A stretch of 64,000 nucleotides of DNA from Poseidonibacter lekithochrous. Its GTDB lineage: Bacteria; Campylobacterota; Campylobacteria; Campylobacterales; Arcobacteraceae. The stretch lies in contig NZ_CP054052.1 in assembly GCF_013283835.1 (NCBI RefSeq), positions 3,162,001-3,226,000 of the forward strand. Reading direction: 5' to 3'. Position 1 is the first letter of the stretch; each line of letters begins with the position of its first letter. Below, piece by piece: positions 59,373-61,432 of this stretch. The translations under genes were made by a program, and so were the position numbers. The notes beneath the pieces are model-generated. The model was not told the origin of the DNA, made no database searches, and was given only the letters and a program-made list of their open reading frames with translations.

Positions 59373-59663
59373 ATGACTGTAGATGATAACTTAATTGCAA
59401 AATTATCAAAACTATCTAGTTTAGAAATTGATGAGGCAAAAAAAGAGAATCTTAAATCTGAACTTGCTGATATTATTAACTTTGTTGAAAATCTAAATGA
59501 AATTGATGTATCAAGTATAGAAGCTACATTTAATACTGTTGAGGGTGGAACACCATTAAGAGAAGATGTTGCTAAACAAGATTTAGAACTTTCAAGTCAC
59601 ATTATGAGTAATGCTCCAAAAAGTGAAGATGGGTACTTTGTAGTACCAAAAATTATAGAATAG
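59373..59663 (+). CDS. gatC: Asp-tRNA(Asn)/Glu-tRNA(Gln) amidotransferase subunit C
   Basis: Stabilises GatA/GatB in tRNA-dependent amidation. The 96-residue protein has the family core LIAKLSKLSSLEIDE, IINFVENLNEID and the C-terminal LREDVAKQD. AAGGAATATT precedes the ATG. gatA and gatB are elsewhere, as is usual in Campylobacterota. A selenoprotein-type ArsC gene begins 11 bases after its stop. Confidence 0.93.
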   Translation: MTVDDNLIAKLSKLSSLEIDEAKKENLKSELADIINFVENLNEIDVSSIEATFNTVEGGTPLREDVAKQDLELSSHIMSNAPKSEDGYFVVPKIIE

Positions 59664-59674
59664 GAAATATTAAC

Positions 59675-60016
59675 ATGATTAAGGTTTATGGAATAAAAAC
59701 CTGAGACTCTGTTAGAAAAGCCTTAAGGTTTTTTAAGGACAACAACATTGAAGTAGAATTCTCTGATACAAAAAAAGAGATTCCAACTTCTGATTCTATC
59801 AAGTCTTGGTGTGATAAAGCTGGTATTGATTTAGTTTTCAATAACAGAGGAACGAAATATAGAACTCTAAAATTAAAAGAATTAAATTTAGATGATGAAG
59901 GTAAAGTAGAATGGTTATGTAAAGAACCAATGCTTTTAAAAAGACCTATTATTGAAGCAGCTGATGATGTAGTTGTAGGATTTAATGAAGATAATTATAA
60001 AGAGAAATTTTTATAA
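59675..60016 (+). CDS. ArsC/YffB-family selenoprotein with in-frame UGA
   Basis: Starts at ATG 59675 after AGGAAAT, 11 bases past gatC. The tenth codon is TGA (59702-59704) at the place of the catalytic Cys: MIKVYGIKT-U-DSVRKALRFF. The frame then stays open to TAA 60016, giving 113 residues with the family ending (NNRGTKYRTLKL, EPMLLKRPIIEA, VGFNEDNYKEKF). Close Cys homologues read KNCDTVKKA. A 6-bp SECIS-like hairpin follows 16 bases after the UGA. No start lies between the UGA and a distal ATG, so an independent product is unlikely. Redox role inferred. Selenocysteine readthrough is inferred, not shown; a nonsense mutation is the alternative. Confidence 0.85.
59705..59738 (+). promoter_or_regulatory. 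Bacterial SECIS-like element after the UGA
   Basis: Stem CCTTAA (59721-59726) and TTAAGG (59733-59738) with loop GGTTTT. The loop starts 22 bases after the UGA and has G as its first base, as in the bacterial SECIS model. An upper extension through TGTT/AACA (59709-59712 with downstream bases) is possible. Confidence 0.75.
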
Positions 60017-60017
60017 A

Positions 60018-60052
60018 AAAAAGGGGAAGTTTTAATAACTTCCCCTTTTTTT
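60018..60052. terminator. Bidirectional terminator between the ArsC-like gene and aroG
   Basis: AAAAAAAGGGGAAGT pairs with ACTTCCCCTTTTTTT around a seven-base loop; T-runs suit both strands. Confidence 0.85.
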
Positions 60053-60067
60053 ATGCCAAAGATATAA

Positions 60068-61432
60068 TTATACGATTATATCTTTTCTAGCTTCTTTTAA
60101 TGTATCTGCAATCATAAATGATAACTCTAAAGCTTGATCAGCATTTAATCTTGGATCACATTGAGTATTATATCTAGACGCTAAACCTTCTTGAGTAATA
60201 GCAGAACTAGCACTTCCTGTACACTCAGTAACATCTTGTCCAGTCATTTCTAAGTGAATACCACCAGCGTAAGTTCCCTCAGCTCTGTGGATTTGGAAGA
60301 ATTTCCTAACTTCACTTAATACTGCTTCAAAATCTCTAGTTTTGTAACCATTATCAGCTTTGATAGTATTTCCATGCATTGGGTCTGATGACCATAATAC
60401 ATTTTTACCTTCTTTTTTAACTCTTGCTAATAATTTAGGGAAATGATCTTCAATTTTATTTGCACCCATTCTAACAATAAGATTTAATCTTCCTGCTTCA
60501 TTTTCTGGGTTTAAAGTATCAATTAATTGGATTAATTCGTCTTCTTTCATAGAAGGTCCTACTTTACAACCAATAGGGTTTTTAATACCTCTAAAGTACT
60601 CAATATGAGCATCTTTTAAGTCTCTTGTTCTATCACCTATCCATAACATATGTGCAGCACAATTGTACCAGTCACCAGAAATAGAATCTTTTCTAGTTAA
60701 TGCTTGTTCATAGTTTAATAGTAGTGCTTCATGAGAAGTAAATAGTGTAGTTTGATTTAGTTGAGCAGTATTCTCACTAGTAATTCCACATGCTTTCATA
60801 AAGTTTAATGATTCAGTAATCTTAGATGCAATTTCTTCATATTTTGAACCTAATTCATTATCTTTTACAAAGTCTAAGTTCCATGATTGAACGCTATTTA
60901 AATCAGCCATTCCACCTCTTGAGAAGGCTCTTAAAAGGTTCATTGTTGCAGCACTTTGATTATATGCTTTTAATAATCTTTTTGATTTAGGATTTCTAGA
61001 TTTTTCTGTAAAGTCAATATCATTAATAATATCTCCTCTATATGAAGGTAAAGAAATACCATTTATCTCTTCAAAATCAGCAGATCTTGGTTTTGCAAAT
61101 TGTCCTGCAACTCGTCCAACTTTTACTACAGGACATCCACCTGAGAAAGTTAAAACAACTGCCATTTGCATCATAACTTTAAATAAATCTTTAATATTAT
61201 TCGCATTAAATGAAGTGAATGATTCAGCACAGTCTCCACCTTGTAAAAGAAAAGCTTTTCCATTTACAACATCCGCTAATTGATTTTTTAAACTTAATGC
61301 TTCACCAGCAAAAATTAAAGGTGGATATGAACTTAATTCATTCTCTACTTTCTTTAATTTTTCTAAGTCATTATAAGTTGGTTGTTGCTTGATTGGGAAA
61401 TCTCTCCAACTACTTGGATTCCAAGTTTTCAT
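60068..61432 (-). CDS. Class II 3-deoxy-7-phosphoheptulonate synthase
   Basis: Condenses phosphoenolpyruvate and erythrose 4-phosphate, the first step of the shikimate pathway. The 454-residue protein has the class II (plant-like) signature: [60 protein letters not shown] and the N-terminal [14 protein letters not shown]. It stands alone with its own terminator. The 155-bp upstream gap contains the tal hairpin and AT-rich promoter DNA. Confidence 0.96.

Follow-up and report, generated by a model that had tools for sequence, protein, structure and literature searches.

The closest described relatives of the protein considered here are the YffB proteins, represented by PA3664 of Pseudomonas aeruginosa (PDB 1rw1) and Bm-YffB (PDB 2kok), for which previous work supports glutathione binding and a role as thiol reductases, and which do not carry the arginine triad of ArsC (PMC3169414). 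Selenocysteine (Sec) is already on record in the ArsC superfamily. The Sargasso Sea survey described a Sec protein of this superfamily with a UxxS motif (PMC1088965), a bacterial survey of 2006 reported ArsC-like selenoproteins, with those of Deltaproteobacteria, compared here by description only, listed as ArsC-like thiol oxidoreductases that contain Sec and have in places been converted to Cys (PMC1794560), and the GOS survey found UxxS together with a UxxC form assigned to cd03032 (PMC2398784). The sequence-only reading of this DNA had likewise noted Sec ArsC-like proteins from bacterial surveys. An inventory from 2026 lists 119 prokaryotic selenoprotein families and subfamilies, and its ArsC-superfamily entries are TIGR00014 with UxxS and NF041106 with UxxC, with no entry for TIGR01617 with UxxV (PMC13188914). 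The main text of a 2015 study of Epsilonproteobacteria does not mention ArsC (PMC4607533), and a literature search of openly accessible main texts found nothing on a Sec-containing YffB or on selenocysteine in Arcobacteraceae.

The window, a 64,000-nucleotide stretch of the Poseidonibacter lekithochrous genome (contig NZ_CP054052.1, positions 3,162,001 to 3,226,000), holds a gene that, with high probability, encodes a YffB-type thioredoxin-fold selenoprotein in which the UGA at codon 10 is read as Sec by means of a SECIS hairpin. This reading rests on the conserved frame, the exchange of Sec and Cys among orthologues, covariation in the SECIS, the Sec machinery of the genome, purifying selection, and the predicted fold. 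The features of the locus, in window coordinates, are as follows.

59373 to 59663, + strand: gatC, directly upstream of the yffB-type gene
59662 to 59667, + strand: putative ribosome-binding site AGGAAA, overlapping the gatC stop codon and 7 nt 5' of the ATG
59675 to 60016, + strand: candidate selenoprotein gene of the yffB type; 113 codons, one of them UGA (Sec), and a TAA stop
59702 to 59704, + strand: in-frame TGA, codon 10, where the family has its invariant catalytic Cys
59711 to 59743, + strand: possible lower stem closing the SECIS, GTT (59711-59713) with AAC (59741-59743)
59721 to 59738, + strand: predicted SECIS hairpin CCTTAA-GGTTTT-TTAAGG, conserved across copies with compensatory pairs
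60023 to 60045, no strand: inverted repeat GGGGAAGTT/AACTTCCCC, with A/T runs on both sides
60068 to 61432, − strand: aroG (so named in the sequence-only reading), convergent neighbour of the yffB-type gene

The space between gatC and aroG had been described as empty to a gene caller but as holding a full-length gene with a ribosome site and a single TGA, and each part of this description stands: the list of open reading frames has none of 40 amino acids or more on the + strand between the two genes, and the frame runs from the ATG at 59675 to the TAA at 60014-60016 with the TGA of codon 10 as its sole internal stop. As the gene is invisible to ordinary gene callers, it has probably been overlooked in these genomes or annotated as a broken gene. 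In all 90 orthologous loci gatC immediately precedes it on the same strand, and the two genes likely form an operon; aroG is conserved as a neighbour in most loci, and the inverted repeat in the window is likely a bidirectional terminator between it and the yffB-type gene.

With the TGA read as a residue, the window protein matches PF03960 (69 bits, cut-off 24) and TIGR01617 (97.8 bits, cut-off 75.05), and two other Sec copies score 88.7 and 94 bits against the latter. It falls below the cut-offs of TIGR00014 arsC (43.5 bits against 106.05), of NF041106, the ArsC family (seleno)protein (31.4 against 85), and of the Spx-specific models (36.4 against 123). The best structural match of its predicted model (pLDDT 95.8) is P. 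aeruginosa YffB 1rw1 (TM 0.92, rmsd 1.6), followed by S. aureus SACOL0876 and Spx, with the Spx structures at TM 0.72-0.85 and E. coli ArsC, at TM 0.77, well behind YffB. The window protein is like YffB in fold and length, and the two have in common a motif of the type GIK-C/U-[DN]SV, a KRP block, and a single catalytic residue; they differ in that 1rw1 and 2kok are Cys proteins, whereas the window protein would have Sec with a SECIS. By these comparisons it is a Spx/MgsR/YffB-type relative of ArsC and not an arsenate reductase. The gene had been introduced as ArsC/YffB-family, with a redox or arsenate-reductase-like reaction in view, and this is refined here to the YffB/Spx type.

The family name leaves room for a regulator. 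TIGR01617, the top curated model, is titled "Spx/MgsR family RNA polymerase-binding regulatory protein", and together with the agreement with Spx structures this would fit an RNA polymerase-binding protein with its Sec as the oxidant sensor. We regard this as unlikely, given that the CXXC or UXXC redox switch is absent from the window protein, whose motif is UDSV, that the Spx-specific cut-offs are far from reached, and that the name of TIGR01617 is broad while the nearest fold is that of YffB rather than Spx. A true arsenate reductase, with Sec as the arsenate-binding nucleophile, is also improbable. PF03960 is the ArsC family, the overall fold is common to E. coli ArsC and the predicted model, and Sec ArsC-like proteins with UxxS and UxxC are on record (PMC1088965, PMC13188914); however, the TIGR00014 score is less than half the cut-off, the closest structures are of YffB and Spx type, the gene adjoins gatC rather than an ars operon, and YffB proteins do not have the ArsC arginine triad, from which class alone we infer that Arg60/Arg94/Arg107 would be missing here as well (PMC3169414). 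Elsewhere in the genome, at G000:C1:2259614-2259925, there is a second, distant, stop-free ArsC-family gene with 25% identity to the yffB-type protein of the window, possibly the true arsC of this genome.

A search of 104 Arcobacteraceae genomes gave matches in 95, a few of which have the distant paralogue alone, and 90 orthologues were extracted from these genomes for counting codon 10. This codon is TGA in 18 and TGT or TGC in 72, with no other codon found. Such a pattern is hardly due to chance, and it agrees with the earlier placement of the TGA at the catalytic Cys of the family and answers the question, raised with it, of whether TGA alternates only with Cys codons. Decay through random stops and frameshifts had been named as the contrary outcome; the 18 TGA copies are all free of second stops and frameshifts, and the median dN/dS among them is 0.28, by which measure the gene is under purifying selection. 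The TGA copies are spread across several genera and branches of the tree and include assemblies of Arcobacter, Aliarcobacter, and Halarcobacter, with metagenome-assembled genomes in the majority. Across 349 genomes sampled from the order, the matches listed outside Arcobacteraceae are all free of stops, so that within these genomes the TGA form seems to be restricted to that family. The gene tree, built on 112 columns and weakly resolved, calls for at least four changes between Sec and Cys, three of them forced by well-supported branches, and the direction of change is read mainly from the fossil hairpins described below. The only Sec copy found in the large genus Aliarcobacter, L019, comes from a metagenome-assembled genome (G017) and clusters in the gene tree with those from other genera, which suggests gene transfer or a binning error. 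In one Cys copy, L033 of G060, a TAA cuts the frame nine codons early, which may be due to misassembly or to a shortened C-terminus.

The predicted SECIS hairpin of the TGA copies, which formed no part of the sequence-only reading, is conserved with compensatory changes. In the window, its stem starts 16 nt past the TGA, and the conserved G, first in the loop, lies 22 nt past it; all 18 TGA copies have a 6-bp Watson-Crick stem 16-17 nt 3' of the TGA, with a loop of 5-6 nt that begins with G. Four TGA copies on another branch have the variant CTTTGA-GTTTTT-TCAAAG, and a further copy has CTTTAA/TTAAAG. The stem of L020 is displaced by one base along its full length, with changes in the amino acids, and all its pairs are kept. 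Two stem pairs have changed on both sides (CG to UA and AU to GC). In a count over nine pairs, the possible 3-bp lower stem included, the covariation score exceeded that of all 500 shuffles, and 96.8% of cells were paired, against at most 56% when the partner strand was slid. The lower stem is nearly invariant in Sec copies and is therefore weak evidence taken alone. With six copies of the window's genus set aside, such a hairpin occurs in 2 of 66 Cys copies. Those six (L015, L023, L024, L028, L029, and L030) are Cys copies that have kept the hairpin, or nearly so, and most of their genomes retain selA; their hairpins look like fossil SECIS elements and point to recent reversions from Sec to Cys.

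Several observations on the hairpin count against it or are neutral. Comparable hairpins occur in the SelD and FdhA genes of this genome, but the loop in the yffB-type gene lies ~4-6 nt farther from the UGA than in these two. The SECIS region does not stand out from shuffles in its folding energy (z +0.4 to -1.4), and for the sequence of the window itself a competing register, with a UUAA loop, is favoured by RNAfold. When single Sec-type sequences are randomised synonymously, ~11-23% acquire a hairpin of this length by chance. Because chance hairpins are this frequent and folding statistics of single sequences uninformative, the case for the SECIS rests on conservation across copies. The hairpin codons vary less at synonymous sites in Sec copies than they do in Cys copies, but the difference does not exceed that in the rest of the gene, and for that reason it was not used as evidence. 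All Rfam matches at the gene are below gathering scores and none is meaningful; its SECIS is thus unrecognised in Rfam. In two Cys copies, L082 and L083, the place of the SECIS is taken by a 7-bp hairpin that arose by chance (CTTTGAA-GTTT-TTCAAAG), which is a caution against calling SECIS elements from single sequences.

The genome (G000; one contig of 3.57 Mb, 100% complete) was found to have all four of the genes named earlier as a check, selA, selB, selD, and selC. SelB scores 298 bits, above its cut-off, and SelA 563 bits; the tRNA-Sec has anticodon TCA (UCA); selD is itself a Sec gene with an in-frame TGA; and fdhA also has an in-frame TGA. Most of these lie together:

G000:C1:1348090-1353463: compact Sec cluster of selB, selA, a divergent tRNA-Sec, and the TGA-containing selD

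Aragorn found no tRNA at the selB locus, and the tRNA-Sec was located beyond selA, which it also adjoins in many other genomes with Sec copies. Of the 18 TGA genomes 17 have selA, as do 51 of the 72 Cys genomes (p = 0.03, uncorrected for relatedness), an association in the right direction and weak alone. In the remaining TGA genome, G077, which is 74% complete, neither selA nor tRNA-Sec was found, and this was counted against the selenoprotein reading.

UGA is the leakiest stop codon, and the codon might instead be read through by a near-cognate tRNA such as that for Trp, or terminate translation to give a regulatory peptide of nine residues, in either case with no selenocysteine. This is highly improbable: relatives without the UGA invariably have the catalytic Cys in its place, the hairpin accompanies the TGA, and the full Sec machinery is present here, with selA in all but one of the TGA genomes. 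That the gene is a decaying pseudogene of an ordinary Cys protein is barely tenable, for a single substitution would indeed turn TGT or TGC into TGA and most relatives have Cys, but recent nonsense mutation does not fit 18 TGA copies over several genera and branches with no other stop or frameshift, a dN/dS of ~0.28, and compensatory changes in the SECIS.

On the selenoprotein reading, SelB and tRNA-Sec would insert Sec at the UGA of codon 10, directed by the hairpin 16 nt downstream, and the Sec, at the N-terminus of helix 1, would be the single nucleophile. It would attack a disulfide or an S-thiolated substrate to form a selenylsulfide, which an external thiol, either thioredoxin or a small thiol, would then resolve; an external thiol is proposed since a second cysteine is not conserved, with none in 10 of the 18 Sec copies. 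Given that the protein is a selenoprotein, we put the chances that it acts as such a single-Sec thiol-disulfide reductase at about even. YffB binds glutathione (PMC3169414), whereas the standard genes for glutathione synthesis were not found in the window genome: gshA (PF04262) gave no match, and the matches to gshB fell far short of the cut-off. The partner could plausibly be thioredoxin or some other small thiol.

Compared with the Sec proteins already described, the window protein very likely represents a new Sec subfamily, UxxV, inside a known superfamily, judging from motif and model scores. NF041106, the "arsenate reductase-like protein", is also of the ArsC superfamily and has Sec at the homologous first Cys, but it is UxxC, whereas the window protein is without the UxxC pair. 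The "arsenate reductase" of the Sargasso Sea and GOS data (COG1393/TIGR00014) likewise has Sec at the catalytic Cys and a SECIS downstream, but it is a UxxS form from marine metagenomes. We lean slightly toward the wider proposal that Sec-YffB is an uncatalogued subfamily found, within Campylobacterota, in Arcobacteraceae only, that it would act as a one-selenol reductase without standard glutathione, and that Sec and Cys have been exchanged within genera, with fossil SECIS elements marking reversions. If true, the 2026 inventory's own rule would make the YffB-type UxxV form a further subfamily (PMC13188914). Published work has not settled the substrate of YffB (PMC3169414), and the natural Sec and Cys versions in closely related species would allow a direct test of the benefit of selenium.
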